Shown here piece by piece: positions 3,272 to 44,135 of a stretch of DNA of 64,000 nt. This stretch comes from Microlunatus antarcticus (GTDB taxonomy: Bacteria; Actinomycetota; Actinomycetes; Propionibacteriales; Propionibacteriaceae). A model generated the notes under the pieces. That model was not told the origin of the DNA. It saw nothing but the letters and a program-made list of their open reading frames with translations, and ran no database searches. The DNA lies in NCBI RefSeq assembly GCF_014193425.1, contig NZ_JACHZG010000001.1, positions 1,736,001-1,800,000 on the forward strand, read 5' to 3'. Position 1 is the stretch's first letter. Every line of letters begins with the position of its first letter. The position numbers and the translations under genes were made by a program.

Positions 3272-3287
3272 GCGCCTCACGTCTGCA

Positions 3288-3344
3288 CGAGAGGTAGGTC
3301 GCGCCGTCCGAAACGGCGTTCTCGGCAGCGCGACCTACCTCTCG
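3288..3344. repeat. 17-bp inverted repeat downstream of the AbiEi/DUF559 gene
   Basis: The arm CGAGAGGTAGGTCGCGC (3288-3304) is perfectly repeated in inverse orientation at 3328-3344, with a small inner hairpin (CGCCGT/ACGGCG) in the loop. The stop codon of the DUF559 gene lies in the right arm, and recQ ends 16 bp upstream, so the structure could serve as a bidirectional terminator. The same arm sequence recurs on the other side of the DUF559 gene at 4358-4414, which a simple terminator would not explain. Confidence 0.85.
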
Positions 3345-4345: not shown

Positions 4346-4357
4346 AGCCCAGTCCGA

Positions 4358-4414
4358 CGAGGGGTAGGTCGCGCTGCGATCTGGTCGCTTTCCAGCGGTG
4401 CGACCTACCTCTCG
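4358..4414. repeat. 15-bp inverted repeat upstream of the AbiEi/DUF559 gene
   Basis: CGAGGGGTAGGTCGC (4358-4372) is opposed by GCGACCTACCTCTCG (4400-4414), one G-T wobble in otherwise perfect arms, with CTGG/CCAG in the loop. The core GGTAGGTCGC is the same as in the palindrome at 3288-3344. It lies between the start of the DUF559 gene and the promoter of the VWA gene. Confidence 0.85.
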
Positions 4415-4446
4415 TTGGAGGAACCGAGGCCCCTGGAACGGCGGAC

Positions 4447-4452
4447 TAGGTT
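4447..4452 (+). promoter_or_regulatory. -10 element of a leaderless promoter for the VWA gene
   Basis: TAGGTT ends 6 nt before the ATG at 4459, the spacing expected when transcription starts at the first base of the start codon. No Shine-Dalgarno sequence is visible. This gives the VWA gene its own promoter beyond the DUF559 cassette. Confidence 0.55.
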
Positions 4453-4458
4453 CGGGCC

Positions 4459-6474
4459 ATGAGCGCTGAGCGGTACGAGCCGCGCGACCCGCACGGGCGG
4501 TTCCGGTACGGGCCGTGGCGGGGTGGGCCCGACCCGCTGGCGGCGCCGTACGACGTCCGCGCGGCGATCGACAAGATCGGGGCGGACGTCCTCTCGGCCG
4601 GGAACGTGCGCGACTCGCTGCGCGAGCTGCTGCGCGAGGGCCTCGACGGGCGGGGCGGCCTGGACCGGCTGGCGGACAAGATCCGCCGCCTCCGGAACGC
4701 GGCCCGCAAGCGTGGCGACCTGGGCGGGACGCTGGACCAGGTCCGCGCGGCGCTCGACCAGGCGCTCGCGGCCGAGCGGGAGGCGCTGGCCGAGGACGAG
4801 GGCGACGACGCCCGCTTCGCCGAGATGGAGCTCGACACCCTGCCCGACGACGTGGCCGGCGCTGTCCGCGGCCTCGACAGCTACGACTGGCAGTCGCCCG
4901 AGGCGAAGCAGACGTACGAGCAGATCAAGCAGATGCTCCAGCGCGAGGTGCTGGACGCCCAGTTCGCAGGGATGAAGCAGGCCCTCGAGAGCCCGGACCC
5001 GGAGGCCATGGCCCGGGTCAAGGACATGCTGGCCGACCTCAACCAGCTGCTGGCCCAGCACGCCCGCAGCGAGGACACGACCGACGCGTTCCGTGACTTC
5101 ATGGACAAGCACGGCGAGTTCTTCCCCGAGGAGCCCGAGAACGTCGAGGAGCTCATCGACGCGCTCGCCCGGCGCCAGGCCGCCGCCCAGCGGATGATGA
5201 ACTCGCTCAGCCCCGAGCAGCGCGAGCAGCTCGGCCAGCTGATGTCCGACGCCCTGGCCGACGCCGACCTCGCGTCGGAGATGGCGCAGCTCGGCGACAA
5301 CCTGCGCTCGCTGCGCCCCGGTCTCGACCGCGGCTCGGACGCCGGGATGCGCCCGGGCGGGGAGAGCCTCGGCTACTCCGACGCCGTCGAGGCGGTCGCC
5401 GAGATCGCCGACCTCGAGGCGCTCGAGGCGCAGCTGTCGCAGTCCGGCTACGGCTCGACGCTGGACGACGTGGACGTCGACCTGCTGGAGCAGCGGCTCG
5501 GCCACGAGGCGGTGCGCGACTTCCAGGCCCTGCGCGACCTGGAGCGCGAGCTCGAGGAGCAGGGCTACCTGAGCCGCGGCGACGACGGGATGCGCCTGAC
5601 GCCGCGCGCCGTCCGCCGGCTCGGCCAGACCGCGCTCAAGCGGGTGTTCGACCAGCTCGCCGCGAGCGGGAACGGCGACCACGCCGACCACCGCACCGGC
5701 GCCGCGGACGAGCCGACCGGGCTGACCCGGCCCTGGGTGTTCGGCGACGAGCTGCCCATCGACGCCAGCCGTACGGTGTCGAACGCGCTGCGCCGACGGG
5801 CGCTCAACCCTTCGACAGGCTCAGGAAACGGACGCGGCTCGGGCGGCGGGATGCTGCTCGACGTCGAGGACTTCGAGGTCACCGAGACCGAGCGGCGGAC
5901 GACCGCCGCGGTGGCGCTCTGCGTCGACCTCTCGTACTCGATGGTCCAGGACGGGCGCTGGGGGCCGATGAAGCAGACGGCCCTCGCGCTCAGCCACCTG
6001 ATCGAGACCAAGTTCCGCCAGGACGCGCTGCAGGTCATCGGCTTCAACCGCTACGCGCGCACGCTGTCGGCCGTCCAGCTCGCCGAGGCGGAGCCGGACT
6101 ACGTCCAGGGCACCAACCTGCAGCACGCGCTGCTGCTGGCCACCCGCCACCTGCGCCGCCACCCCGACGCGGAGCCGGTCGTGCTGATCGTGACCGACGG
6201 CGAGCCGACCGCGCACCTCACCGGCGACGGCGGGGCGCGGTTCCAGTGGCCGAGCACGCCCGAGACGATCCGGGCCACCGTCGCGCAGGTCGACGAGCTC
6301 GCCCGCTACGGCGCGACGCTCAACACCTTCATGCTCGGCGACGACCCCGGCCTGGCCCGGTTCGTCGACGCGATCGCGCGGCGGGCCGGCGGGCGGGTGT
6401 TCACCCCCGACATCGGTCGGCTGGGGGAGTACGTGGTGAGCGACTACCTCCAGGCCCGGCGCGGCCGCCGCTGA
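4459..6474 (+). CDS. VWA domain-containing protein (partner of MoxR/ChlI ATPase)
   Basis: 671-residue cytoplasmic protein with a long, acidic, mostly helical N-terminal region and a C-terminal von Willebrand A domain (about 485-665). The MIDAS metal site is complete: DLSYS (DxSxS) near residue 490, the threonine in QGTNLQHA and TDGEPT. Such proteins work with a MoxR/ChlI ATPase, here the gene at 1-1400, probably in metal insertion or protein remodelling; the substrate is unknown. A short Gly/Ser-rich linker near residue 450 (PSTGSGNGRGSGGG) is partly encoded by a copy of the CCTTCGACAGGCTCAGG repeat, apparently inserted in frame. Confidence 0.87.
   Translation: MSAERYEPRDPHGRFRYGPWRGGPDPLAAPYDVRAAIDKIGADVLSAGNVRDSLRELLREGLDGRGGLDRLADKIRRLRNAARKRGDLGGTLDQVRAALDQALAAEREALAEDEGDDARFAEMELDTLPDDVAGAVRGLDSYDWQSPEAKQTYEQIKQMLQREVLDAQFAGMKQALESPDPEAMARVKDMLADLNQLLAQHARSEDTTDAFRDFMDKHGEFFPEEPENVEELIDALARRQAAAQRMMNSLSPEQREQLGQLMSDALADADLASEMAQLGDNLRSLRPGLDRGSDAGMRPGGESLGYSDAVEAVAEIADLEALEAQLSQSGYGSTLDDVDVDLLEQRLGHEAVRDFQALRDLERELEEQGYLSRGDDGMRLTPRAVRRLGQTALKRVFDQLAASGNGDHADHRTGAADEPTGLTRPWVFGDELPIDASRTVSNALRRRALNPSTGSGNGRGSGGGMLLDVEDFEVTETERRTTAAVALCVDLSYSMVQDGRWGPMKQTALALSHLIETKFRQDALQVIGFNRYARTLSAVQLAEAEPDYVQGTNLQHALLLATRHLRRHPDAEPVVLIVTDGEPTAHLTGDGGARFQWPSTPETIRATVAQVDELARYGATLNTFMLGDDPGLARFVDAIARRAGGRVFTPDIGRLGEYVVSDYLQARRGRR
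5808..5825 (+). repeat. Interspersed repeat inside the VWA gene
   Basis: CCCTTCGACAGGCTCAGG, a short dispersed motif also found in both orientations at 31444-31583. Here it lies within a coding region and reads in frame as part of the linker NPSTGSG. Confidence 0.7.
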
Positions 6475-14639: not shown

Positions 14640-15461
14640 GTGATCTTCGGGCGCAAGAAGAAGGCCCGGTCGGGCGAGGACGAGACCGAGGTGGAGTCCG
14701 TCGAGGCGGAGACCACCGAGGACGAGGTCGAGCGCGAGGACGCGGTCGACGGCGACGCCCCCGAGCCCAGCGACGACGACGCGACGGAGACGTCGGTCGC
14801 GGACGGCCTCGACACGGAGGCGCTGGACGCGACCGAGTGGCGGACCGACGGCCCCTTCGAGGTCGCCGAGCTGGCCGGCACGGACGACGACCTCAGCGAC
14901 GACCAGCCGCGCATCGACCTCGGCAGCATCATCGTGACCCCGGTGCCCGGCTCGGAGCTGCGGCTGCAGGTCAACGAGACCCAGGACATCGTCTCGGCGA
15001 TGCTCGTGCTGCCGGTGACGGCGCCCGCGACGAACGGCGCGCAGCCCGAGGTCGTCGGCAGCTCCGCGCTGGAGCTGAGCGCGTACGCCGCTCCCCGCAG
15101 CGGAGGCCTGTGGGCCGAGCTGCGCGACGAGATCTCCGAGGCCGCGGCCGAGGTGGGCGGGTCGGCCGAGCTGGCCGCCGGACCGTTCGGCGTCGAGCTG
15201 CGCCGGCTGCTCCCCGTGACCACGCCCGACGGCGAGCAGGGCTACCAGCCCTCGCGCATGTGGGTGGCCGAGGGGCCGCGCTGGCTCCTGCGCGGCATCG
15301 TCTACGGCCAGGCCGCCATCGAGAGCGACGAGGACGACCCGGCCGTGGCTGCCGTGCTGGCCGCGTTCCGCGAGGTCGTCGTCCGCCGGGGCGACGAGGC
15401 CATGGCGCCCGGCGACCTGCTGCCGATGTCCATGCCCGCGGACCTGCAGCCCGCCGAGTGA
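14640..15461 (+). CDS. DUF3710 family protein
   Basis: 273 residues. It opens with a basic MIFGRKKKAR, then a strongly acidic low-complexity stretch (about 12-85, rich in Asp/Glu/Thr), then a globular domain with RIDLGSIIVTPVPG, LELSAYAAPRSGGLW, MWVAEGPRWLLRGIVYG and FREVVVRRGDEAM, all typical of DUF3710 (M. tuberculosis Rv2696c from memory). Function unknown. GTG start. Same strand as dut and the OB-fold gene downstream. Confidence 0.88.
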   Translation: MIFGRKKKARSGEDETEVESVEAETTEDEVEREDAVDGDAPEPSDDDATETSVADGLDTEALDATEWRTDGPFEVAELAGTDDDLSDDQPRIDLGSIIVTPVPGSELRLQVNETQDIVSAMLVLPVTAPATNGAQPEVVGSSALELSAYAAPRSGGLWAELRDEISEAAAEVGGSAELAAGPFGVELRRLLPVTTPDGEQGYQPSRMWVAEGPRWLLRGIVYGQAAIESDEDDPAVAAVLAAFREVVVRRGDEAMAPGDLLPMSMPADLQPAE

Positions 15462-15548
15462 TGCCCGCCCGACTTCGGCTGCCGGCACCACGGGTTGGCG
15501 GACGGTGGGATGCTGGAGCGATCGACGACCCCGTGCGGAGGATGCTTC

Positions 15549-15929
15549 ATGGGTAAGGAGAACGTGCTGCAGCGGGCGCTGCGACGTCTGGCGACGTCCA
15601 ACGCCGAGCTCGAGTCCGAGGACCTGCAGCGCAACGTCCGTCAGGAGGGCGCCGTCCCCATCGGCACCTGCCAGGACCGCGAGCAGGTGTGCCTCACCGG
15701 GACGGTCTCCGCGATCACGCTGAGCCCCCGCGCCGGTCACCCGGCGCTCGAGGTCGAGCTGCGCGACGGCTCGGGCGGCGTGACCCTGGTCTGGCTCGGC
15801 CGGCGGCAGATCCCGGGCATCGACGCGGGCCGCACGCTCAAGATCCAGGGTCGGATCAGCTGCCACGAGGGTCGCCGGCTGGTCTACAACCCGCGGTACG
15901 AGCTGCTCCCGACGCCGACCGCTTCGTGA
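15549..15929 (+). CDS. OB-fold nucleic acid binding domain protein
   Basis: 126-residue protein with an OB-fold: GTVSAITLSPRAGHPALEVELRDGSGGVTLVWLG and RTLKIQGRISCHEG are the strands seen in tRNA-anticodon-type OB domains. Probably binds nucleic acid; no partner known. A GAGGA ribosome-binding site precedes the ATG at 15549, which is preferred over an in-frame ATG at 15495. Its TGA overlaps the next gene's GTG (GTGA). M. tuberculosis Rv2694c is the likely syntenic counterpart (from memory). Confidence 0.85.
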   Translation: MGKENVLQRALRRLATSNAELESEDLQRNVRQEGAVPIGTCQDREQVCLTGTVSAITLSPRAGHPALEVELRDGSGGVTLVWLGRRQIPGIDAGRTLKIQGRISCHEGRRLVYNPRYELLPTPTAS

Positions 15930-16678
15930 CCGAGGCCCCTCGGGCCGCGGCGGCCGACGCCGCCGACGTGACGCCCGCCGCGGCGGAGCGACCGCAGTTC
16001 CGCTACGTCGAGGAGCTGGTCCGGCACGAGCTCAGCCGGACCCTCGGGGGCGTGCGGGGGATGGTCGAGGCGGCGCTGCCGTTCGTCGGCTTCACCGTCG
16101 CCTGGGTCAGCTCGCGGAACCTCTACCTGTCGCTCGGCGTCGCCCTCGGCACCGCGCTGGTGCTGGCCGTCGTCCGGCTCGTGCAGCGGTCCTCGCTGAA
16201 GTTCGTCGCCCAGGCCGTCGTGCCGACCGCGATCGCCGCGATCATCGCCACCCGGACCGGTCGGGCCGAGGACGTGTTCCTGCCCGGCATCCTCTACAAC
16301 GGCGCGCTGGCCGTCGTCTCGCTGCTCACCGTCGCGATCCGCCGGCCGCTCATCGGCTTCGTCGTGGGGGCCGCGCTCGAGGACCCGACCGGGTGGATCA
16401 AGGACCGCGCGCTCGTGCGGATGAGCTCGCGCCTCACGCTGGTGCTCGCCGTGCCGTACGTGCTCCGCTTCGTCGTCCAGCTCCCGCTCTTCCTCTCCGG
16501 GAAGGTCGTCTGGCTGGCCGTGGCCAAGGTCGCGCTGGGCTGGCCGCTCCTGCTCGCGGCCCTGTTCGTCATCGGTCTGCTGCTCTCCCGGGGCCGCACG
16601 CCCATCGAGGGCGCGGGCTCGCCGGCCGTCCCGTCGGTCGAGGAGGGCCCCGGGCTGTCCCGGGGATCGACCGCCTAG
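15926..16678 (+). CDS. DUF3159 integral membrane protein
   Basis: 250 residues with an alanine-rich N-terminus, the conserved ELVRHELSRTLGGVRGMVEAALP segment broken by a first membrane entry, and five to six hydrophobic helices. DUF3159 proteins are actinobacterial and of unknown function. Start GTG at 15926 overlaps the stop of the OB-fold gene. In the mycobacterial gene order as I recall it, the trkA pair comes next, whereas here two secreted propeller genes and a repeat array lie between. Confidence 0.87.
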   Translation: MTEAPRAAAADAADVTPAAAERPQFRYVEELVRHELSRTLGGVRGMVEAALPFVGFTVAWVSSRNLYLSLGVALGTALVLAVVRLVQRSSLKFVAQAVVPTAIAAIIATRTGRAEDVFLPGILYNGALAVVSLLTVAIRRPLIGFVVGAALEDPTGWIKDRALVRMSSRLTLVLAVPYVLRFVVQLPLFLSGKVVWLAVAKVALGWPLLLAALFVIGLLLSRGRTPIEGAGSPAVPSVEEGPGLSRGSTA

Positions 16679-16837
16679 GCGCTCGTCCGGAAGAGTTCCG
16701 CTTCTGCGTGACAGATGTGACAGAAGTGGCGAAGGTCACGGTCTGGTCCGCGCGATCTTCTCAGATCTGGCTCAGCCGTGAGGCAGCATGAATGCGCGCC
16801 GCTGGCCACCAGGCCCGGCCGTGAACGGAGCTTTGCC

Positions 16838-19711
16838 TTGATTCCTTTCCCCCGCCCCCTCCGCACCGTCGCCGCGCTGGCGATCGCCGGACTGGTCTCT
16901 GCCAGCCTGGTCCCGGCGAGCACGGCCGGTGCCGACGTCACGACCGTGTCGGTCAACAACTTCAGGACGGGCTGGGACCAGAACGAGTCCGGCCTGGCCC
17001 CGTCCGACGCCTCGGCTCCCGACTTCGGCCAGCTCTTCGCGACCAAGCTCGACGGGCAGATCTACGCCCAGCCGATCCTGGCCAAGGGCGTCCTGCTCGC
17101 GGTCACGGAGCAGGACAAGGCGTACGGCCTCGACCCGGTCACAGGGGCCATCAAATGGACCCGTGACGTCGGGCCCGAGTGGGCAGCCTCGAACATCGGC
17201 TGCGGCGACCTGGTCCCGGACATCGGCATCACCGCCACCCCGGTGGTCGACCAGGACACGGGCACGGCGTACTTCACCGCGAAGGTCGACGACGGCAAGA
17301 ACGGCGACAACCCGCACTGGTACATGCACGCGATCGACGTCACCAGCGGCAAGGAGCGGGCGGGCTTCCCGACCACGATCAAGGGCTCCGCGGACAACGA
17401 CGACGACATCGACTTCAACCCCAAGACCGCCATGCAGCGGCCCGGGCTGCTGCTCCTGGACGGGGTGGTGTACGCGGGCTTCGCGAGCCACTGCGACCAC
17501 GGGCCGTACGTCGGCTACGTCATCGGCGTGAACGCCACGACCGGCAAGCAGACGGCGATGTTCGCGACCGAGACCGGGAGCTCGAAGGCGGGCGCCGGCA
17601 TCTGGCAGTCGGGCGGCGGCCTCGTCTCCGACGGCAAGGGCCAGATCATCTTCGCCACCGGCAACGGCGTCTCGCCGTCGCCGCGTGCCGGGAACAAGCC
17701 GCCGGGTCAGCTGGCGGAGTCGGTCGTGCGCGTGGAGGTGCAGGCGAACGGCACGCTCAAGGCCACCGACTTCTTCTCGCCGGTGAACAACAGCAACCTC
17801 GACACCGACGACACCGACCTGGGCTCGGGCGGGCCGATGGCCATCCCGGACGGCTACGGCACCAAGGACCACCCCCACCTGCTCGTCGAGGTCGGCAAGG
17901 ACGGGCGCGTGTTCCTGCTCGACCGCGACGACCTGGGCGGCAGCGGCCAGAAGGCCGGCAAGAAGGACGACGTGCTGCAGACCGGCGGCCCGTACAAGGG
18001 CGTCTGGGGCTACCCGGCGTTCTGGGGGGGCGACGGCGGCTACGTCTACATGACGACCAACCGCGGCCCGCTCTCGGCCTTCAAGATCGGCGTCTCGGGC
18101 TCGGGCAAGCCGGCCCTCAGCCGGACCGGGACGACCTCCTCGAACTTCGGCTACACCTCCGGGTCGCCGATGGTCACCTCGAACGGCAAGAACTCGGGCT
18201 CGGCGCTGGTCTGGGTCGTCTACAGCAAGGGCCCGGCCGGCGACGGCGGTCAGCTGCGGGCCTACGACGCCGTGCCGAACAAGGGCAAGATGACGTTGCG
18301 CTACTCGGCGCCGATCGGGACGGCCACCAAGTTCTCCGTGCCCGCCACCAACAACGGCCGCGTGTACGTCGCGAACCGGTCCGGGTCGGTCTACGGGTTC
18401 GGGCGGCCGACCACCATCGCCCTGGCCAGCACGCCGACCGACTTCGGCATGGTCGCGGTCAAGAAGACCGTGACCAAGCAGGTCACCGTCACGGCCAAGC
18501 GCACGGTCAAGCTCACCAAGATCAGGACCGACGCCCCGTTCACCGCGGCCAAGGTCAAGCTGCCCGTGACCCTGAAGGCCGGCGCCACGCTCACCGTGCC
18601 CGTGACGTACAAGCCCACGAGCCCCGTGTCGGAGTCGGGCGCCATCTCGTTCGTGACCACGACGGGAACGTTCGCCTTCGACCTGCACGGTGCCGGAACC
18701 GAGGACGGGCTGCTGTCCGACCCCTCGACGCTGGACTTCGGCGAGGTGCCGGTCGGCGGCAAGGTGACGCTCGACGCCAGCATCACCAACAGCGGGTCCA
18801 CCACCACGACGATCAACGCCGCGACCGGGCCGAAGGGCCCGTTCAGCACGGACTCGCTGCCCGACGCGGGCACCAAGCTGGGCGCGGGCAACTCCGTGTC
18901 GGTGCCGATCTCCTTCGAGCCGACGGCGGCGGGCAAGTTCAGCACCACGCTGGTGGTCAAGTCCTCGACCGGCGACGTCACCGTCCCGATCACGGGCACC
19001 TCGATCAAGGGCAACGCGCAGCTGACCATCACGCCCGGCACGCTGCAGTTCGGCTCGGTGCAGGTGGGGAAGTCGGTGACGAAGAACTTCGACATCACCA
19101 ACACCGGCAACCTGCTGCTGACGCTCACCAAGGCGGCACCGCCGACGGCGCCGTTCCTGGTGCCGGACCCGGTGTCCGAGGGGCAGCAGATCGAGCCGGG
19201 TGACGTCATCCACCAGTCGGTCACGTTCACCCCGACCAAGACCGGTGCGTTCGACGGCACCTACTCGATCACGGGGAACGACGGCCAGGGGGCGCACCTG
19301 ATCTCGGTCCACGGCACCGCGGTCACGAAGCCCGTCACCCACGCCATCACCGGCCTGGGCAAGTGCGTCGACGTCCGCAAGGGCAAGACGAAGAACGGGA
19401 CGGCGGTCCAGCTGTACACCTGCAACCAGACCGACTCGCAGACCTGGGTGCAGGACGGCAGCACGCTGAAGTCCCTCGGCAAGTGCCTGGACGTCAAGGG
19501 CGGTTCGACCAAGAACAAGGCCAAGGTCCAGCTGTGGGGCTGCAACGGCAGCGCCGCGCAGGACTGGAAGGTCGGCGACGACAGCTCGTTGGTCAACACC
19601 AAGTCGGGCCGCTGCCTCGACGTGCCGGACGGCAAGGCGAAGAACAAGGTCCAGCTCTGGATCTACAACTGCAACGGCTCCGACGCCCAGCGCTGGTCGC
19701 TGGACGGCTGA
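16838..19711 (+). CDS. Secreted PQQ-like beta-propeller / SPD-2-like / ricin-lectin protein, copy 1
   Basis: Exported modular protein of about 957 residues. Signal peptide at 1-33 ending STAGA, then a PQQ-like beta-propeller (about 35-525: YAQPILAKG, AYGLDPVTGAIKW, IITFATGNGVSP-like segment, GYPAFWGGDGGYVYM), three Ig-like SPD-2/choice-of-anchor-D repeats starting near 531, 631 and 735 (each with LDFG/LQFG..VG), and a C-terminal ricin-type trefoil lectin (about 838-957) with QTW, QDW and QRW motifs. Probably a wall- or glycan-bound extracellular protein; no enzyme activity can be assigned. TTG 16838 is chosen because ACGGAG lies 7 nt upstream and a signal peptide follows directly. Tandem paralogue of the next gene. 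Confidence 0.82.
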   Translation: MIPFPRPLRTVAALAIAGLVSASLVPASTAGADVTTVSVNNFRTGWDQNESGLAPSDASAPDFGQLFATKLDGQIYAQPILAKGVLLAVTEQDKAYGLDPVTGAIKWTRDVGPEWAASNIGCGDLVPDIGITATPVVDQDTGTAYFTAKVDDGKNGDNPHWYMHAIDVTSGKERAGFPTTIKGSADNDDDIDFNPKTAMQRPGLLLLDGVVYAGFASHCDHGPYVGYVIGVNATTGKQTAMFATETGSSKAGAGIWQSGGGLVSDGKGQIIFATGNGVSPSPRAGNKPPGQLAESVVRVEVQANGTLKATDFFSPVNNSNLDTDDTDLGSGGPMAIPDGYGTKDHPHLLVEVGKDGRVFLLDRDDLGGSGQKAGKKDDVLQTGGPYKGVWGYPAFWGGDGGYVYMTTNRGPLSAFKIGVSGSGKPALSRTGTTSSNFGYTSGSPMVTSNGKNSGSALVWVVYSKGPAGDGGQLRAYDAVPNKGKMTLRYSAPIGTATKFSVPATNNGRVYVANRSGSVYGFGRPTTIALASTPTDFGMVAVKKTVTKQVTVTAKRTVKLTKIRTDAPFTAAKVKLPVTLKAGATLTVPVTYKPTSPVSESGAISFVTTTGTFAFDLHGAGTEDGLLSDPSTLDFGEVPVGGKVTLDASITNSGSTTTTINAATGPKGPFSTDSLPDAGTKLGAGNSVSVPISFEPTAAGKFSTTLVVKSSTGDVTVPITGTSIKGNAQLTITPGTLQFGSVQVGKSVTKNFDITNTGNLLLTLTKAAPPTAPFLVPDPVSEGQQIEPGDVIHQSVTFTPTKTGAFDGTYSITGNDGQGAHLISVHGTAVTKPVTHAITGLGKCVDVRKGKTKNGTAVQLYTCNQTDSQTWVQDGSTLKSLGKCLDVKGGSTKNKAKVQLWGCNGSAAQDWKVGDDSSLVNTKSGRCLDVPDGKAKNKVQLWIYNCNGSDAQRWSLDG

Positions 19712-19735
19712 GTCGCCTGCACCGCTCGACCTGAC

Positions 19736-19775
19736 GGCGGCGCACCGGGGTCTCCCCGGTGCGCCGCCGCTTTTC
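19736..19775 (+). terminator. Rho-independent terminator between the two propeller genes
   Basis: Perfect 15-bp stem (GGCGGCGCACCGGGG with its complement at 19754-19768), loop TCT, followed by GCTTTTCTT. It separates the transcription units of the two paralogues. Confidence 0.92.
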
Positions 19776-19867
19776 TTGAACTGGCAACGAGGTAGGAGTT
19801 TCTCAGGCACCATGGTCCCGCAGCGTCCGGTAGGGGGTACCGGAGCTCGGGGGATCGGGGAACACTC

Positions 19868-22750
19868 ATGCCTGCCAAGGCTCACTACTCACGCGCGCTC
19901 GTCGGGAGCCTGCTGATCGGGCTGGTGTCGGCGTTCGTCGCCGTCGCCTCGCCGGCGCAGGCCGACCTCACCACGGTCTCCGTGGACACGCTGCGCACCG
20001 GCTGGGACGCCAACCAGCCCAAGCTCACGCCGTCGGACGTGACGGCCCAGGACTTCGGCCAGCTGTTCGCGACCCAGCTCGACGGACAGGTCTACGGTCA
20101 GCCCGTCGTGGCGAAGAACACGCTGCTCGCCGTCACCGAGAACGACAAGGCGTACGGGCTCGACCCCGTGTCGGGTGCCGTGCGCTGGACCCGCAACATC
20201 GGCACGCCCTGGTCCGTCGCCCCGATCGGGTGCGGCGACCTCGTCCCGAACATCGGCATCACGTCGACCCCGGTGGTCGACCCCGCGACGGGGACGGCCT
20301 ACTTCACCGCCAAGGTGGACGACACGGCCAACCCCGACCACCCGCGCTGGGAGCTGCACGGCATCGACATCACGACCGGCGTCGAGCGCTCGGGCTTCCC
20401 GACGATCATCACCGGCTCGCCGGACAACGACCCGGGCACCACCTTCTCCCCGCGCACGCAGCTCCAGCGCACCGGCCTGCTGCTCATGGACGGCGTCGTC
20501 TACCTGGGCTTCGGCAGCCACTGCGACGTCCACCCGTTCACGGGCTACGTCATGGGCTTCGACGCCACGAGCGGCAAGAAGACCGCGATGTGGGCGGCCC
20601 AGACCGGGGGCACGAACGGCGCCGGGATCTGGCACGCGGGCGGCGGCCTCGTCTCCGACGGGCCGGGGCGCATCATCCTGGCCACCGGCAACGGTGTCTC
20701 GCCGGCCAAGGGCCCGGGCTCCGCCGTCCCGAACAACCTCTCGGAGTCGGTCGTCCGGCTGCAGGTGCAGGCGGACAAGACGCTCAAGGGCGTCGACTTC
20801 TTCTCCCCGGTCAACAACACGTTCCTCGACACCGACGACACCGACCTCGGCTCCGGCGGCCCGATGGCCGTCCCGGACGGCTACGGCACGGCCTCGTACC
20901 CGCACCTGCTCGTGCAGGGGGGCAAGGACGGGCGGGTCTTCCTGCTCGACCGGGACAACCTGGGCGGCATGGGCCAGGGTCCGAACGGGACCGACGCGGT
21001 GCTGCAGACCAGCGGCCCGTACAAGGGCACCTGGGGCCACCCCGCGTTCTGGGGCGGCAACGGCGGCTACGTCTACCTCGTCCCCAGCGAGGGTCCGCTC
21101 TCGGCGTTCAAGCTCGGTGCCTCGGGCGACGGCAAGCCGCTGCTGACCCGCACCGGGACGTCGGCGACCACCTTCGGCTTCAGCTCGGGCTCGCCCGTCG
21201 TCACCTCCACGGGCACGACCGCCGGCTCGGCGCTGGTCTGGGTCGTCTACAGCAAGGGCTCCAACGGCGCCAACGCGCAGCTGCAGGCGTACGACGCCGT
21301 TCCCGCCAAGGGGACGATGACGCTGCGCTACTCCGTGCCGATCGGGACGGCGTCGAAGTTCACCGTGCCGGCGACCGACAGCGGCCGCGTGTACGTGGGC
21401 ACCCGCACCGGCACGGTGTTCGGCTTCGGCCGGCCCACCACCACCGCCGTCGCCGGGACGCCGACCGACTTCGGCCTGGTCCCCGTCGGCACGCCCGTCA
21501 CCAAGCAGGTCACGGTCACGGCCACCAAGGCGGTGACCGTGACCGGCGTCAGCACGGCCACCCCGTTCGCCACCGGTGCGGTCACCCTGCCCGTGACGCT
21601 CGCGGCGGGGGCGACGCTCAAGGTGCCCGTGACGTTCCGGGCGACCTCCTCGGGCGCGGTCGCGGGAGCGCTGACCTTCGTCACGTCGTCGGGCACCTTC
21701 GCCTTCGGTCTCACGGGCTACGGCACCCAGGACGGACTGCGGTCCGACCCCGGGAGCCTCGACTTCGGCGACGTCCCGGTCCGCGGCAGCGTGACGGCCA
21801 GCGTCAGCGTCTCCAACAGCGGCGCGACGGCGACCACGATCACCGGCGCCACGGCGCCGACCGGCACGTTCAGCTCCACGAGCCTCCCCGTCACCGGCAC
21901 GACGCTCCAGCCGGGCGCCTCGGTGTCCGTCCCGGTCACGTACGCCCCGGGTGCGGCCGGTCCGACGACGTCGGAGGTCGTGGTGTCGTCCTCGACCGGG
22001 AACGTCCGCATCCCCGTCGTCGGGAACGGCGTCACCGGCTCGCCGAAGCTGACCCTGTCACCGCAGCAGGTCGACTTCGGCGACGTGGAGGTCGGGAAGT
22101 CGGTGAGCGAGTCGTTCGACCTGAGCAACACGGGCAACCTGCTGCTGACGCTGAGCAAGGCGGCACCGCCGACGGCCCCGTTCCTGGTGCCGAGCCCGGT
22201 GTCCGAGGGCCAGCCGATCGAGCCCGGCGACACCATCCCGCAGTCGGTCACGTTCGCCCCGACGAAGGCCGGCGCCTTCACCGGCAGCTACGTCATCACG
22301 GGCAACGACGGCCAGGGTGCGCAGACGGTCGACTTCACCGGCTACGGGGTGGTCACGCCCAAGGTCGGCACGATCAACGGGCTCGGCAACAAGTGCCTCG
22401 ACATCCGGTCGGCCTCGCAGGCCGAGGGCACGGTCGTGCAGCTCTACACCTGCAACGGCTCGCGGGCCCAGAACTGGACCTTCCCCGGCGACGGCACCAT
22501 CCGGGGCATCAACCGGTGCCTCGACATCGCCGGCAGCGCGACGACGAAGAACGCCAAGGTCCAGATCGGGCTGTGCAACGGCCGGGCGAGCCAGGCCTGG
22601 ACGTACCGCGGCGGCTCCGCCTCCGCCCTTGTGAACACGGCCTCGGGCATGTGCCTCGACATGCCGGGCGGCAAGCCGGTCGACCGGATCCAGCTGCAGA
22701 TCTACCCCTGCAACTGGAGCGCCGCCCAGAAGTGGTCGGTCCCGAGCTGA
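19868..22750 (+). CDS. Secreted PQQ-like beta-propeller / SPD-2-like / ricin-lectin protein, copy 2
   Basis: 960 residues, same order of domains as the preceding gene and highly similar throughout: signal peptide ending PAQA (about residue 35), TTVSVDTLRTGWD, propeller to about 525 (AYGLDPVSGAVRW, GHPAFWGGNGGYVYL), SPD-2-like repeats near 532, 630 and 734, and a ricin-type lectin from about 839 (KCLDIRS, QNW, QAW, QKW). A tandem duplication is the simplest origin. ATG 19868 has GGGGAA about 7 nt upstream. It is convergent with trkA, and the intergenic space holds the 322-bp repeat array. Role unknown; extracellular carbohydrate or wall binding is inferred from the lectin. Confidence 0.82.
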   Translation: MPAKAHYSRALVGSLLIGLVSAFVAVASPAQADLTTVSVDTLRTGWDANQPKLTPSDVTAQDFGQLFATQLDGQVYGQPVVAKNTLLAVTENDKAYGLDPVSGAVRWTRNIGTPWSVAPIGCGDLVPNIGITSTPVVDPATGTAYFTAKVDDTANPDHPRWELHGIDITTGVERSGFPTIITGSPDNDPGTTFSPRTQLQRTGLLLMDGVVYLGFGSHCDVHPFTGYVMGFDATSGKKTAMWAAQTGGTNGAGIWHAGGGLVSDGPGRIILATGNGVSPAKGPGSAVPNNLSESVVRLQVQADKTLKGVDFFSPVNNTFLDTDDTDLGSGGPMAVPDGYGTASYPHLLVQGGKDGRVFLLDRDNLGGMGQGPNGTDAVLQTSGPYKGTWGHPAFWGGNGGYVYLVPSEGPLSAFKLGASGDGKPLLTRTGTSATTFGFSSGSPVVTSTGTTAGSALVWVVYSKGSNGANAQLQAYDAVPAKGTMTLRYSVPIGTASKFTVPATDSGRVYVGTRTGTVFGFGRPTTTAVAGTPTDFGLVPVGTPVTKQVTVTATKAVTVTGVSTATPFATGAVTLPVTLAAGATLKVPVTFRATSSGAVAGALTFVTSSGTFAFGLTGYGTQDGLRSDPGSLDFGDVPVRGSVTASVSVSNSGATATTITGATAPTGTFSSTSLPVTGTTLQPGASVSVPVTYAPGAAGPTTSEVVVSSSTGNVRIPVVGNGVTGSPKLTLSPQQVDFGDVEVGKSVSESFDLSNTGNLLLTLSKAAPPTAPFLVPSPVSEGQPIEPGDTIPQSVTFAPTKAGAFTGSYVITGNDGQGAQTVDFTGYGVVTPKVGTINGLGNKCLDIRSASQAEGTVVQLYTCNGSRAQNWTFPGDGTIRGINRCLDIAGSATTKNAKVQIGLCNGRASQAWTYRGGSASALVNTASGMCLDMPGGKPVDRIQLQIYPCNWSAAQKWSVPS

Positions 22751-22780
22751 TCGGGAGGCTGGCCTCCTCAGGTCACTGAA

Positions 22781-23058
22781 AAAGACGCAGCAACGGGGGC
22801 GGAGTGCCCGACGAGTGCGCGCTCCCGCACGTACGGGCGTCAGCTCGAGGTGCGTCAGCGCACACTCGCGAAGTCCTGCGACTTGTGGCGCCGGAGGTCA
22901 CGCCCATCAGCTCGGCGCGTGACTTCTGGCGCCAGCGGTCACACAACCTCTCGAGCGGTACGCCTTCCCGGTCCGCAGTCGCCGAAACCCGGGATGGGGT
23001 ACCGCTCGCGGTCAGAGAGCGGACTCGTGGATCGCCCGCTCCTCGTTGCTGCCCCTTT
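22781..23058. repeat. Structured 322-bp tandem repeat, unit 1
   Basis: First copy of a repeated unit whose ends form an inverted repeat (AAAGACGCAGCAACG at the left, the near complement ending GCTGCCCCTTT at the right). Three further stem-loops lie inside, as described for unit 2. This copy has the most changes, mainly in its left terminal arm and the first hairpin. A 43-bp linker joins it to unit 2. Confidence 0.8.
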
Positions 23059-23101
23059 GCTTGTCGAGAGCCCGGCCACCGTTGGGCTGGGGCTCCAGGC
23101 G

Positions 23102-23380
23102 AAAGACGCAGCAACGCGGAGCGGGGCGACCGGCGAGTGTGCGCTCCCGCACGTACGGGCGGTCGGTCGAGGTGCGTCAGCGCACACTCGCGAAGTCCTA
23201 CGACTTGTGGCGCCGGAGGTCACGCCCATCAGCTCGGCGCGTGACTTCTGGCGCCAGCGGTGACACAACCTCTCGAGCGGTACGCCTTCCCGGTCGCGAG
23301 TCACCGAAACCCGGGATGGGGTACCGCTCGCGGTCAGAGAGCGGACTCGTGGATCGCCCGCTCCTCGTTGCTGCGCCTTT
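23102..23380. repeat. Structured 322-bp tandem repeat, unit 2
   Basis: Best-paired copy. Terminal arms 23102-23129 and 23354-23380 are near-perfect inverse complements (AAAGACGCAGCAACG against CGTTGCTGCGCCTTT and onward). Inside are three stems: a 13-bp perfect one at 23133-23145/23179-23191 (GCGAGTGTGCGCT), an 18-bp one with two mismatches at 23208-23225/23239-23256 (TGGCGCCGGAGGTCACGC) and a 19-bp one with mismatches at 23275-23293/23311-23329 (GAGCGGTACGCC...). The linker after it contains GAGCCC/GGGCTC. Confidence 0.85.
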
Positions 23381-23423
23381 GCTTGTCGAGAGCCCGGCCA
23401 CCGTTGGGCTGGGGCTCCAGGCA

Positions 23424-23702
23424 AAAGACGCAGCAACGCGGAGCGGGGCGACCGGCGAGTGTGCGCTCCCGCACGTAGGGGCGGTCGGTCGAGGTGCGTC
23501 AGCGCACACTCGCGAAGTCCTACGACTTGTGGCGCCGGAGGTCACGCCCATCAGCTCGGCGCGTGACTTCTGGCGCCAGCGGTGACACAACCTCTCGAGC
23601 GGTACGCCTTCCCGGTCCGGAGTCGCCGAAACCCGGGATGGGGTACCGCTCGCGGTCAGAGAGCGGACTCGTGGATCGCCCGCTCTTCGTTGCTGCGCCT
23701 TT
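23424..23702. repeat. Structured 322-bp tandem repeat, unit 3
   Basis: Third copy, beginning 322 bp after unit 2 and nearly identical to it, including all three internal stems and both terminal arms. Similarity stops at TTGCTTGTCG (about 23710), 25 bp before the stop codon of the trkA gene that reads toward it. Confidence 0.85.
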
Positions 23703-23734
23703 GCTTGTCGCCCGCGACTTTGTCGCCGCGAGGA

Positions 23735-24451
23735 CTACAGACCCTGGGTCATCCGGGCCGGGGCGGCGAGGGAGGCGTCGACGACCCCGCCCTCGCGGGG
23801 GGACAGGACGTCGGCCAGCTCGCGCTCGTCGACCTGAGCGGTGACGAACAGCAGCTCGTCGCCGGCCTCGAGGGAACCGTCCGGGTCGGGCGCCTGCGTA
23901 CGACCGTCGCGGATGATGGCGACGAGCACGGCGTCGCCGGGCCAGGTCTGGTCGCCGATGCGCGTGCCGGCCACGGGGCTCGAGGTGGGCAGGGTCATCT
24001 CGACCAGGCTCGACTCGCCCTCGTGGAAGGTCATGAGGCGGACGAGGTCGCCGACCGTGACCGCCTCCTCGACCAGCGCGGACATCAGCCGGGGCGTGGA
24101 GACGGAGACGTCGACGCCCCAGACCTCGTTGAACAGCCACTCGTTCTTCGGGTGGTTCACCCGGCCGACCGTCCGCGGCACGCCGAACTCGGTCTTGCAG
24201 AGCAGCGAGATGACGAGGTTGGCCTTGTCGTCACCCGTCGCGGCGATGGCCACGTCGCAGGTGTCGATGCCGGCCTCCTCCAGCGAGGAGAGCTCGCAGG
24301 CGTCGGCCAGCAGCCACTCGGCCTGGGGGAGCGTGTCGGACTTGATCGCCCGCGGGTCGCGGTCGATCAGCAGGATCTCGTGACCCTTCTCGACCAGCTC
24401 GGCGGCGATGGAGCGGCCGACGTTCCCGGCTCCGGCGATGACGACGCGCAT
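23735..24451 (-). CDS. TrkA-type potassium uptake regulatory protein (CeoC-like)
   Basis: RCK/KTN regulatory subunit: an N-terminal Rossmann domain (MRVVIAGAGNVGRSIAAEL, ILLIDRDP, ADACELSSLEEAGI) binds NAD(H) or nucleotide, and a C-terminal RCK_C-like domain ends in DELLFVTAQVDE. 238 residues. ATG 24451 is chosen because GGAAG lies 8 nt upstream; a GTG at 24457 that overlaps the upstream stop is possible. It follows a second TrkA-type gene in the same operon, the CeoB/CeoC arrangement of mycobacteria, and both lie divergent from a KimA-like permease. Confidence 0.9.
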   Translation of the reverse strand: MRVVIAGAGNVGRSIAAELVEKGHEILLIDRDPRAIKSDTLPQAEWLLADACELSSLEEAGIDTCDVAIAATGDDKANLVISLLCKTEFGVPRTVGRVNHPKNEWLFNEVWGVDVSVSTPRLMSALVEEAVTVGDLVRLMTFHEGESSLVEMTLPTSSPVAGTRIGDQTWPGDAVLVAIIRDGRTQAPDPDGSLEAGDELLFVTAQVDERELADVLSPREGGVVDASLAAPARMTQGL

Positions 24452-24453
24452 GC

Positions 24454-25116
24454 TCACACTTCCTGGGGGGCGGCGGCGAGGACGTCCTCGACGCGGGCGA
24501 GGCTCGCGTCCTCGACGGCGGCGTAGACCAGGTCGCCGTCCTGGAAGATCGTGGTGTCCTTGGGGACCAGCGCCGACCCCATCCGGAAGAGGAAGGGGAC
24601 GCGGGCGCCCGTGGCGTCCTCGATGTCGCGGACGGTGCGGCCGACCCAGGAACGGTCGACGTGCACCTCGATGATGCGGACCGAGCCCGACGGGTCGCGC
24701 CACAGGGGCTCCGAGCCGGCGGGCAGCAGACGGCGGAGGACCTGGTCCGCCGTCCAGCGGACGGTGGCGACCGTGGGGATGCCGAGCCGCTCGTAGACCT
24801 CGGCGCGTCCCGGGTCGTAGATGCGGGCCACCACGTTGTCGACGGCGAACGTCTCACGGACGACGCGCGCGGCCAGGATGTTGGAGTTGTCGCCGGAGGA
24901 CACGGCGGCGAAGCCGTCCGCGCTCTCGATCCCGGCCTCGACCAGGACCTCGCGGTCGAAGCCGACGCCCTTGACCGTACGGCCGCCGAAGTCGGGCCCG
25001 AGTCGTCGGAACGCGTCCACGTCGACGTCGATCACCGCGACCGTGTGGCCCCGCTTCTCCAGCGAGCGCGCCAGGGTCGAGCCCACGCGGCCACAGCCCA
25101 TGATCACGATGTGCAC
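24454..25116 (-). CDS. TrkA-type potassium uptake regulatory protein (CeoB-like)
   Basis: 221 residues. N-terminal Rossmann fold VHIVIMGCGRVGSTLAR and AVIDVDVDAF, GVGFDREVLVEAGI, then an RCK_C-type C-terminal domain (VGRTVRDIED, LVPKDTTIFQDGDLVYAAV). GTG 25116 is the first base expected for a leaderless transcript, with TACACT 7 nt upstream on the minus strand. It would regulate potassium uptake with the neighbouring TrkA-type protein and the divergent permease; that link is inferred from position. Confidence 0.9.
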   Translation of the reverse strand: MHIVIMGCGRVGSTLARSLEKRGHTVAVIDVDVDAFRRLGPDFGGRTVKGVGFDREVLVEAGIESADGFAAVSSGDNSNILAARVVRETFAVDNVVARIYDPGRAEVYERLGIPTVATVRWTADQVLRRLLPAGSEPLWRDPSGSVRIIEVHVDRSWVGRTVRDIEDATGARVPFLFRMGSALVPKDTTIFQDGDLVYAAVEDASLARVEDVLAAAPQEV

Positions 25117-27182: not shown

Positions 27183-28438
27183 GCTCCGTGCGAGCAGCCG
27201 GGCAGGTCGTGGGTCCGGTCGAGGTCGGCCCGGTCGCGCACGGCGGCCACTGCGTCGCCCGGCTCGACGTCGGCGACGGCGGTCCCGGGCGGGTGGTCTT
27301 CGTCCGGCACGCGCTACCCGGCGAACGGGTCCTGCTGACGCTGACCGACACGAGCCACGCCCGCTTCTGGCGCGCCGACGCCACCGAGGTGCTAGACGCC
27401 TCGCCCGAGCGCGTCGCCCCGCCCTGCCGGGTCGCCGGGCCGGGGCTGTGCGGCGGGTGCGACTGGCAGCACGCGAGCCGGGTCGAGCAGCGCCGGCTCA
27501 AGACCGCCGTGGTCGCCGAGCAGCTGCAGCGCCTCGCCGGCCTGACCTGGACGGGCGAGGTCGAGGCCGTGCCGGTGCCGGGCTCGACCACCGACGACGG
27601 GCTCGGCTGGCGCACCCGGATGCGCTACCACGCGGACGACGACGGACGGGCCGCGCTGCGGGTGCACCGTTCCAACGACCTCGTCGCGATCCCCGAGGGC
27701 GGCTGCCCGATCGCCTCGCCGCGGACGCCGACGGTCACCGGACAGAGCTGGAGGCCCGGCGCCGAGGTCGTCGCGGGCGGGACGCCGACCGGTTCCGCGC
27801 TGGTCGTCGACCGGCGGGTCGTCGCGACGACCGGCGACGCCGACCCGGACGGGGGGCTCACCGAGACCGTGCACGAGCGGGCGTACGCGGTCCCGCCCGG
27901 CGGCTTCTGGCAGGTGCACCCGGCCGCGGCATCGGTCCTCGTCGACGCCGTGCTCGCCGGGCTCGCCCCCGCAGCGGGGGAGCGCGCGTTCGACCTCTAC
28001 TGCGGGGTCGGACTCTTTGCCGGCGCGCTGGCGGACGCCGGCTGCCAGGTCTGGGGGCTCGAGTCGGGCCGGGCCGCGGTGGCCGCCGCCCGCCGGAACC
28101 TCGCCGACCTCGGTCCCCGCGCCCGCTTCACCGCCGACGACGTCGAGCGCGCGCTGCCGCGGCTGCCGGAGGACGTCGACCTCGTCGTGCTGGACCCGCC
28201 GCGGTCCGGGGCGGGTGCGAAGGTCGTGCGGGAGATCGTCCGGCGTCGGCCGCGCGCGATCGCGTACGTCGCCTGCGACCCGGCCGCCCTGGCCCGCGAC
28301 CTCGCCGGCGCGGCGCAGCACGGCTACGCCCCCACGAGCATCCGCGGCTTCGACCTGTTCCCGATGACCCAGCACGTCGAGTGCGTGGTGGTCCTGGAGC
28401 CCGACGCCGAGAACGGGGAAGTTCCGGCCGCTCAGTAG
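27179..28438 (+). CDS. TRAM-domain class I SAM-dependent RNA methyltransferase (RlmD/TrmA-like)
   Basis: Probable 5-methyluridine methyltransferase of rRNA or tRNA. 419 residues: N-terminal TRAM domain (VGPVAHGGHCVARL, VRHALPGERVLLTL), an iron-sulfur-type cysteine group (PPCRVAGPGLCGGCDW), SAM-binding FDLYCGVGLFAGALA, and the catalytic motifs VVLDPPRSG and YVACDPAALARDL (nucleophilic Cys). GTG 27179 overlaps the permease stop (GTGA). Which RNA base it modifies cannot be told from the sequence. Confidence 0.9.
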   Translation: MSSVRAAGQVVGPVEVGPVAHGGHCVARLDVGDGGPGRVVFVRHALPGERVLLTLTDTSHARFWRADATEVLDASPERVAPPCRVAGPGLCGGCDWQHASRVEQRRLKTAVVAEQLQRLAGLTWTGEVEAVPVPGSTTDDGLGWRTRMRYHADDDGRAALRVHRSNDLVAIPEGGCPIASPRTPTVTGQSWRPGAEVVAGGTPTGSALVVDRRVVATTGDADPDGGLTETVHERAYAVPPGGFWQVHPAAASVLVDAVLAGLAPAAGERAFDLYCGVGLFAGALADAGCQVWGLESGRAAVAAARRNLADLGPRARFTADDVERALPRLPEDVDLVVLDPPRSGAGAKVVREIVRRRPRAIAYVACDPAALARDLAGAAQHGYAPTSIRGFDLFPMTQHVECVVVLEPDAENGEVPAAQ

Positions 28439-28549
28439 CGGTCGGATCTTTCCCGTTGTCCGCCGGGCACCCGGTCAGGCAACCCTTACCGGCCCTCCGG
28501 AACGTCGTTGAGGGACGCTTGACCTCCGCGGGCGTCACGCCACGCGTGA

Positions 28550-31443: not shown

Positions 31444-31583
31444 GAGCCTGTCGAAGGGAAACGCTCCCTGAGCTTGTCGAAGGGCCCGGAACGGGTTGGC
31501 CTCTGACGAGAGAGCCAACCTCTCTGAGGCCCTTCGACGGCCTCAGGGGGCGTGCTGTTTGTGGGCCTCAGACCGGCTCAGGG
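31444..31583. repeat. Cluster of CTTCGACAGGCTCAGG-type repeats
   Basis: The intergenic space after acnA holds several copies of the dispersed motif: GCCTGTCGAAGGG (31446), CCCTGAGCTTGTCGAAGGGC (31466), CCCTTCGACGGCCTCAGGG (31530) and CTCAGACCGGCTCAGGG (31567), in opposite orientations that can pair. Between them GTTGGC/GCCAAC (about 31496-31520) forms a further hairpin. The cluster lies between two convergent genes and may end transcription of both. Confidence 0.7.
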
Positions 31584-34544: not shown

Positions 34545-34568
34545 GTTTTTCACGTTCACGTGAAAAAC
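34545..34568. promoter_or_regulatory. Palindrome 1 upstream of the F420/NADPH reductase-like gene
   Basis: Arms GTTTTTCACGT and ACGTGAAAAAC, perfect over 11 bp with centre TC. It is AT-rich compared with its surroundings. It could also help terminate dxs, but the second related palindrome 62 bp downstream favours an operator. Confidence 0.65.
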
Positions 34569-34606
34569 TGCTGCTGACCGCGGCAGATATGCCGTGGTGA
34601 GCGAGG

Positions 34607-44083: not shown

Positions 44084-44135
44084 GACAACGGGGTGGATCC
44101 GACCGCGTAGACGCGGTCAGATCCACCCCGTTGTC
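44084..44135. terminator. Bidirectional terminator between hemQ and msrB
   Basis: GACAACGGGGTGGATC pairs with GATCCACCCCGTTGTC, and GACCGCG/CGCGGTC continues the stem to a tiny loop TAGA. A very long, nearly perfect stem placed between convergent genes. Confidence 0.85.

Follow-up and report, generated by a model that had tools for sequence, protein, structure and literature searches.

A tandem array of composite palindromic units in Microlunatus antarcticus and a hairpin-bracketed family of AbiEi-like, nuclease-like genes

In a 64,000-nucleotide stretch of the Microlunatus antarcticus genome (hereafter the window) we found a tandem array of three 322-bp units, each an outer stem enclosing three hairpins that belong to families dispersed through the same genome. 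Compensatory changes have accumulated within two of these families, B and D, and the arms of D are conserved at the orthologous sites that were detected. Hairpins of the same kinds bracket genes of a protein family with a predicted AbiEi-like front and nuclease-like end, an association that is firm in the sample analysed, and for the D-bracketed gene in the window the corresponding site was found with and without the gene. We consider it probable that hairpins and genes together form a REP/RAYT-like hairpin-and-nuclease system built on an unrelated enzyme, which would be mobile or homing and of which the array would be a composite by-product. Throughout, G003, G010, G011 and G016–G019 denote Microlunatus congeners, and L followed by a number denotes a genomic or plasmid stretch.

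Structure and distribution of the tandem array

A first-pass annotation of the window had described three tandem copies of a 322-bp element, and this was confirmed by TRF (22780–23710, period 322, 2.9 copies, 96 % matches), by the pairing of arms and by alignment of the units (Table 1). Units 2 and 3, reported there as nearly identical, share 98.2 % identity, whilst unit 1, described as drifted, is 93.5–93.9 % identical to the other two. The proposed 43-bp linker corresponds to the 43 nt measured between the right arm of one unit and the left arm of the next. Terminal inverted repeats are likewise present, although the outer arms of unit 2 are 24 nt long and 92 % complementary as opposed to the 27–28 nt originally given. 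Each unit consists, in order, of an outer arm A, the hairpins B, C and D, and a second outer arm A, and the predicted fold of unit 2 agrees with the suggested layout of a closing stem around three stem-loops. On the + strand this fold has a free energy of −183.2 kcal/mol (z −9.1), and the − strand reaches −173.9 kcal/mol (z −8.5), with 0 of 200 shuffles as good in either case. The array had been thought to hold no convincing protein, and by eye the ORFs lying over it are merely frames that stay open; similarly, no ncRNA family had been recognized, and all Rfam matches are far below gathering scores. Low-scoring miRNA matches of the unit in Rfam were dismissed. Immediately upstream of the array, at 16778–22750, are two adjacent long ORFs of 977 and 960 aa that appear paralogue-like by eye.

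Table 1. Positions, strands and supporting evidence for the array, its hairpins and the partner gene (numbering of the window)
Feature	Position	Strand	Basis or remark
D hairpin at 3′ end of partner gene	3288–3344		arm holds the TAG stop of the gene
Partner gene, AbiEi-like + nuclease-like (putative), 321 aa	3335–4300	−	family alignment; PADLOC AbiEi 5.6e-5
D hairpin on 5′ side of partner gene	4353–4419		D-family match
Gene upstream of array, convergent with the next	19868–22750	+	gene call
Array, three 322-bp units	22781–23702		TRF, arm pairing, unit alignment
Unit 1	22781–23058	+	tandem array, TRF + alignment
Hairpin B, unit 1 (59 nt)	22811–22869	+	B-family model (R2); family covariation
Hairpin C, unit 1 (core 61 nt)	22877–22944 (contig 1758877–1758944)	+	C-family model (R3)
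Hairpin D, unit 1 (55-nt core, 57 including closing C-G)	22953–23007	+	family covariation
Unit 2	23102–23380	+	tandem array; fold z −9.1
Left outer arm A, unit 2	23102–23125	+	pairs with 23357–23380
Hairpin B, unit 2	23133–23191	+	B-family model
Hairpin C, unit 2	23200–23266	+	C-family model
Hairpin D, unit 2	23275–23329	+	D-family match
Unit 3	23424–23702	+	tandem array; 98.2 % identical to unit 2
Hairpin B, unit 3	23455–23513	+	B-family model
Hairpin C, unit 3	23522–23588	+	C-family model
Hairpin D, unit 3	23597–23651	+	D-family match
TrkA-like gene (named by eye) downstream of array, convergent	23735–24457	−	gene call

The array sits between two convergent genes, and elsewhere in the M. antarcticus genome we identified four more unit-bearing loci, namely a full copy (∼80 % identical), a truncated one and two mosaics. 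All four were placed between convergent genes by eye, and the gene caller agrees for the three that have a D hairpin. Smaller pieces of the unit occur at further places, so that, together with the solo hairpins described below, the genome holds more than the three copies to which a purely local duplication, as the first-pass annotation had envisaged it, would be confined. The full unit was found in none of the 39 relatives searched, where short stretches were the longest matches. In G003, the convergent gene pair that holds the array is separated by ∼100 bp containing an unrelated hairpin, and in G017 by ∼20 bp (lengths read off the sequence). The exact outer-arm motif was found in M. antarcticus alone; with one mismatch allowed, 17 of 20 congeners matched, at counts near those of the control. 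A plasmid or phage origin of the unit was considered and rejected, with no match by blastn, and in the nuclease search over all loci none of the seven viral contigs bearing the outer-arm motif matched. As judged from these sequence comparisons, the array is lineage-specific, and the 322-bp unit is a composite of B, C and D hairpins between outer arms that has been tandemly duplicated.

Dispersed hairpin families and compensatory change

A common plan underlies hairpins B, C and D, with 57–61 nt in total, arms of 20–22 nt and a loop of 15–19 nt, and many copies of B and D start with CGAG and end with CTCG. All three also occur singly, outside units, in the M. antarcticus genome. With the best 150 candidates per genome scored and both strands of each palindrome counted, a covariance model of D applied to 20 Microlunatus genomes (E 0.01) detected at least 49 matches in M. 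antarcticus, at least 106 in G017 and at least 98 in G003, as well as two in G018, one in G010 and none in the remaining 15; a B model matched 29 times in M. antarcticus, eight in G018, five in G011 and once each in G017 and G003, with none in 15 genomes; and a C sequence model gave 16 matches in M. antarcticus, two in G017 and one weak match each in G003, G016 and G019. D copies are therefore numerous in three of the 20 genomes and nearly absent from the others.

In an alignment of 24 D sequences 92.7 % of cells pair, the double-change cells number 49 compared with 21.2 in shuffles, and the covariation score is 0.275 compared with 0.124; as the rows came mostly from an exact 8-mer arm search, covariation was tested freely at inner pairs only. 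For 22 B sequences, 86.6 % pair and 16 of 21 pairs have changed on both sides (9.0 in shuffles), in an alignment whose rows derive partly from a 15-pair model and in which the pairs in columns 2–6 lie outside the model helix. Such strong compensatory change in B and D indicates that the hairpins are kept within their families. Template-switching repair of palindromes can also yield double changes. The mismatches in B comprise 18 G.U and 16 A.C, and this near equality shows no strand preference and thus no pointer to an RNA made from one strand. The covariation that the first-pass annotation had put forward as a check is strong inside the single B and D families, over many sites, but absent for the fold as a whole: between unit 2 and the ∼80 % copy, two independent full copies and hence a sample of two, 0 of 107 predicted pairs are compensatory, and of the 30 pairs in the outer closing stem 18 are unchanged, four are changed on one side, three are broken and five are gapped.

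Several further hairpins were noted. A long palindrome whose arms carry CCCTGAGCTTGTCGAAGGGCC, likewise dispersed, lies at window 31461–31553 and at L285 8516–8609, with pieces in L323, and window 44084–44135 holds a hairpin with 24-bp arms, a 4-nt loop and one mismatch. Some D hairpins of G017 (L034, L032 and L046) have beside them, as seen by eye, an additional half motif made up of CGAGCGGTAC or CGAGCGGTAG and ∼10 nt more. Acidobacterial MAGs (L089, L090, L092, L095, L098, L105 and L112) contained strong hairpins in repeated copies, with arms resembling GAGCGGTAGCGA(C/G)CGGGT. We regard hairpins with GAGCGGTA in other phyla as probably fortuitous or convergent, since the search pattern itself selects palindromes.

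Genomic placement of the hairpins

We next consider position relative to genes, which were called by a simple codon-usage script. Among the 66 best-scoring D sites of the stretches taken, with orthologous sites in different genomes counted separately, 44 are convergent, 16 tandem and six divergent; no site falls entirely within a called gene. When these were reduced by hand to 60 regions, 40 were convergent compared with 60 of 387 background gaps (p 1e-15), and five were divergent. The 21 B hairpins outside units show a weaker tilt (eight convergent, 11 tandem and two divergent; p 0.013). At 10 gene ends, as counted by eye and including two from the gene family described below, the overlap between D and the called gene is exactly 9 nt, and a D arm reading GAG CGG TAG or GAG AGG TAG supplies the stop of the overlapping gene. 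A T-rich tract, defined as ≥ 5 T in 12 nt, flanked D on either side at 0 of the 66 sites. Each hairpin family is REP-like and found mostly near gene 3′ ends.

For 12 orthologous D pairs at eight sites in M. antarcticus, G003 and G017 (one of 13 pairs was dropped for unequal loop length), the arms are identical at 401 of 432 positions (93 %), compared with 102 of 228 in the loops and 208 of 456 in the adjacent flanks (about 45 %), figures that favour conserved arms because both hairpins had to be detected by the model. The arms of non-orthologous D sites are equally alike, at 93 %. Conservation of the D arms at orthologous sites would also fit a host function.

A gene family bracketed by its own hairpins

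Two D hairpins bracket a gene in the window (Table 1) whose product taken alone has no Pfam or NCBIfam match. Alignment of its family, which comprises 13 proteins, points to an AbiEi-like front followed by an end resembling DUF559/MTES_1575 nucleases (PD-(D/E)XK-type). Pfam AbiEi_4 scored above its cut-off in three of 12 proteins scanned (L284, L370 and L390; best 2e-9, L370), whilst the PADLOC AbiEi model matched five of seven at E ≤ 0.1 (best 2.8e-21, L370; window protein 5.6e-5). Matches to DUF559 or MTES_1575 were obtained for L271, L291, L406 and L408, the DUF559 score exceeding the cut-off of its model in just L271 and L291 and MTES_1575 staying below its own. Residues D231, G245, R268 and R281 are invariant in the 13 proteins, E242 and D265 are present in ≥ 90 %, and the best PDB match of the family profile is 3hrl, an endonuclease-like protein (E 0.0015).

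Same-family hairpins stand on both sides of the gene in 10 of the 13 members and on one side in three (L271, L176 and L406). A relative of the window protein in G003, encoded at another locus and 64 % identical, is also bracketed by D. The family gene of M. antarcticus L228 is bracketed by B, and its relative in G018 has a single B hairpin, positioned between the family gene and a gatB-like gene (named by eye). C-type hairpins bracket the family gene of G017 L309, and that of G018 L176 has a D-like hairpin within its 3′ part. In the portion of G017 examined no D-type nuclease gene was found, despite the many D hairpins there. Hairpin-bracketed genes are accordingly known for B, C and D, and a limited motif search gave none for the outer arms A. 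Phylogenetic analysis of the 13 proteins pairs the two D genes (96/95) and, separately, the two B genes (96/94); the D clade also takes in the G018 gene with the D-like hairpin and the C-type gene of G017. Solo copies of the hairpin family around L284 are present in the M. antarcticus sample as well, at window 34562–34603 (86 % over 42 nt) and in L404, L287, L390 and L371. Window 28409–28460 holds a weak copy of the L390 hairpin. Relatives of the L271 nuclease were absent from the phages and viral contigs searched, and the L309, L284 and L370 proteins had no plasmid match.

Outside the genus, tblastn recovered three plasmid relatives, all from Arthrobacter (L406, L407 and L408) and with ∼30 % protein identity. 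Same-family hairpins flank L407 and L408 on either side, whilst L406 has a single one, at its 3′ end; in all three the stop codon is inside the 3′ hairpin. Among 72,556 records, and with the caveat that one palindrome may count twice, the L407 hairpin was confined to the two StoSoilB13 replicons (six and four places) and that of L408 to the ERGS1:01 plasmid (seven places), in each case records from the strain of origin.

Control for the association of gene and hairpin

The sample for the protein search consisted of 60 20-kb stretches of the M. antarcticus genome, 17 of G003 and the window. Four family genes were recovered, every one in M. antarcticus (the window gene, L291, L284 and L370), and all four have hairpins on both sides that share a 9-mer. 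Amongst the 1091 other called genes of the M. antarcticus stretches and window, 134 have a hairpin near the 3′ end and 70 have one upstream, yet only 15 have hairpins on both sides and only one has a same-family pair (4/4 versus 1/1091, p 8e-11). That single exception, L390, proved to be a fifth family gene; counting it as such (5/5 versus 0/1090) is post hoc. The search profile included the window gene, L291 and L284, such that L370 was new, and the window gene was first found via its hairpins, L291 and L284 via protein. The hairpin threshold was chosen after family examples were known, and was identical for all controls.

Under a second ORF definition, which misses L390 and L291, five of 718 ORFs in the M. 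antarcticus sample were bracketed: L284, L370, the window gene, a spurious ORF over the array and L401. The last of these (15329–16282), MarR regulator-like by eye, lies between hairpins of another family with GGAAGTCCGT arms and is the one true exception. The same definition gave one of 183 in G003, an ORF that is not coding-like by eye. In Arthrobacter L410 the family gene is bracketed and none of 35 others are, and in L409 this holds for none of 36 others, with the family gene miscalled on the opposite strand and unscored. We conclude that the association of gene and hairpin is firm in this sample.

Sites with and without the gene

At window 1484–6474 the order is gene, D, nuclease gene, D, gene, and in both G003 and G017 the same two flanking genes have a single D between them. 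At the gatB-like gene, M. antarcticus has a nuclease gene between two B hairpins where G011 has one B hairpin; besides the family gene, M. antarcticus is also ∼490 bp longer than G011 at this site. Sites with and without the gene were compared between species only, and a target-site duplication is not established from these.

Interpretation and alternative explanations

For the hairpin-and-nuclease system that we favour, the following course of events can be envisaged. The AbiEi-like part would bind the hairpin arms, as AbiEi binds inverted repeats, and the nuclease part would nick or cut the hairpin. Repair might then copy gene and hairpin together into a hairpin site, or the hairpin alone elsewhere. 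Gene 3′ ends may tolerate insertion, and a hairpin placed there may also end or protect transcripts, whilst composites and arrays could subsequently grow via recombination or slippage. What we infer from these patterns is that hairpins are bound and cleaved and that the elements home or move, and the same applies to whatever effect they may have on their host. Taken further, the elements may constitute a new selfish class, a proposal that we advance tentatively and hold at somewhat short of even: an AbiEi-DUF559 nuclease gene bracketed by, and ending inside, its own hairpin would home into or copy hairpin sites, solo hairpins would be its non-autonomous offspring, several families would coexist and merge into composites, and the two partners, nuclease and hairpin, would evolve together in the manner of REP/RAYT, with an unrelated enzyme. 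To our knowledge, no role has been established for the DUF559 and AbiEi-like nuclease proteins of actinobacteria, and we know of no partner for the long-armed palindromic repeats of high-GC genomes. If each nuclease acts on its bracketing hairpin, one assay would explain both protein and repeat.

The hairpins could instead be selected host 3′-end structures, acting as bidirectional transcript ends or stabilizers or as DNA sites for a chromosome protein, with the link to the nuclease secondary. The convergent placement of D, arms that are kept while loops and flanks diverge, and maintenance of D at orthologous sites all speak for this; however, a plain terminator needs no family-wide arm sequence, D lacks a flanking T-rich tract, hairpin families differ between congeners and the near-exclusive bracketing of family genes would be left unexplained, making this explanation unlikely, if still a serious one. 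Rather less probable is that the hairpins are autoregulatory binding sites of the AbiEi-like part, or belong to a toxin-antitoxin or defence device, with solo copies forming a regulon or arising as by-products of duplication and not through movement. PMC7319586 describes AbiEi binding 23-bp inverted repeats at its own promoter, and the family proteins match AbiEi; nevertheless, the 3′ hairpin holds or touches the stop codon in three of the four genes of the M. antarcticus sample and in all three Arthrobacter genes, an odd place for an operator, and solo D sites avoid divergent gaps.

We also considered that these are ordinary palindromic repeats with a local duplication, the association reflecting hairpins that accumulate around non-essential genes. 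Confinement of the array to one lineage, the frequency of hairpins near genes and the bracketing of L401, which is not a family gene, would suit such an explanation, which the rarity of same-family bracketing elsewhere and the recurrence of the pattern in Arthrobacter at ∼30 % protein identity render very improbable. Least credible, to the point of being negligible, is the possibility, raised in the first-pass annotation, of a structured non-coding RNA that comprises the entire unit and is closed by its outer stem. Its predicted fold is very stable, but the comparison of two independent full copies yielded no compensatory pair, mosaic and truncated copies exist and no Rfam match comes near threshold. 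A palindrome can fold stably and show compensatory changes without giving rise to a functional RNA.

Comparison with known systems

Several known systems resemble the present one in part. As with intrinsic terminators, GC-rich hairpins stand at gene ends; unlike them, the D hairpins have no T tract and the arm sequence is family-specific. Integron attC sites (59-base elements) carry GTTRRRY and RYYYAAC boxes. A gene with a ∼59-nt hairpin at its 3′ end, and a site found with or without the gene, recall integron cassettes, but by eye no attC boxes were seen in D and the protein is not tyrosine recombinase-like. The first-pass annotation's alternative of a MITE-like palindromic element was near the mark insofar as the hairpins form dispersed families, each with relatives that flank or lie next to a gene by which they may be mobilized. 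Terminal inverted repeats and non-autonomous copies are found here as in MITEs and insertion sequences; the differences are that no transposase of a known kind lies inside and that the terminal repeats are complete hairpins.

On the side of the protein, DUF559 and REase_MTES_1575 endonucleases are kin to Vsr, and the C-terminal region of several family members matches this group, from which the bracketing by cognate hairpins sets them apart; we know of no report of DUF559-type nucleases bracketed in this way. Within the open literature, neither a description of these repeats nor a connection between DUF559 and repeats of a palindromic kind came to light; because preprints and subscription papers fall outside this scope, priority is not established. 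The AbiEi-like front recalls the AbiE type IV toxin-antitoxin system, of which an adjacent DUF1814 toxin gene is a mark and in which the AbiEi antitoxin binds two 23-bp inverted repeats at its own promoter (PMC7319586). These repeats are close in length to the arms described here, and binding of the arms is plausible because of this precedent. The present family differs from AbiEi in the fused nuclease-like end and in palindromes that also lie at the gene 3′ end and are dispersed.

There is also a likeness to REP/RAYT, which PMC3733652 depicts as dispersed palindromes lying mostly between convergent or co-directional genes, single, paired or clustered, and flanking a gene. The hairpins here are similarly dispersed, extragenic, near gene 3′ ends and flank a gene, but their 20–22-nt arms exceed the REP stems given there (6–13 bp for GTAG and 8–9 bp for CGTC; PMC3733652), by eye there is no unpaired GTAG or CGTC tag, the GTAG in D lying within the paired arm, and the enzyme is AbiEi/DUF559-like where REP has the RAYT transposase, of the Y1 tyrosine type. 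CGTC REPs are described in the same paper as lacking a dedicated transposase (PMC3733652). Mobilization by RAYT itself was rejected, PF01797 being detected in 0 of 20 Microlunatus genomes with five of 14 controls positive. As the pattern is that of REP/RAYT but PF01797 is missing and arm length and tags differ, we propose a nuclease-and-hairpin system; if each nuclease acts on its hairpin, palindromic repeats with a dedicated enzyme would have arisen at least twice, with unrelated enzymes.
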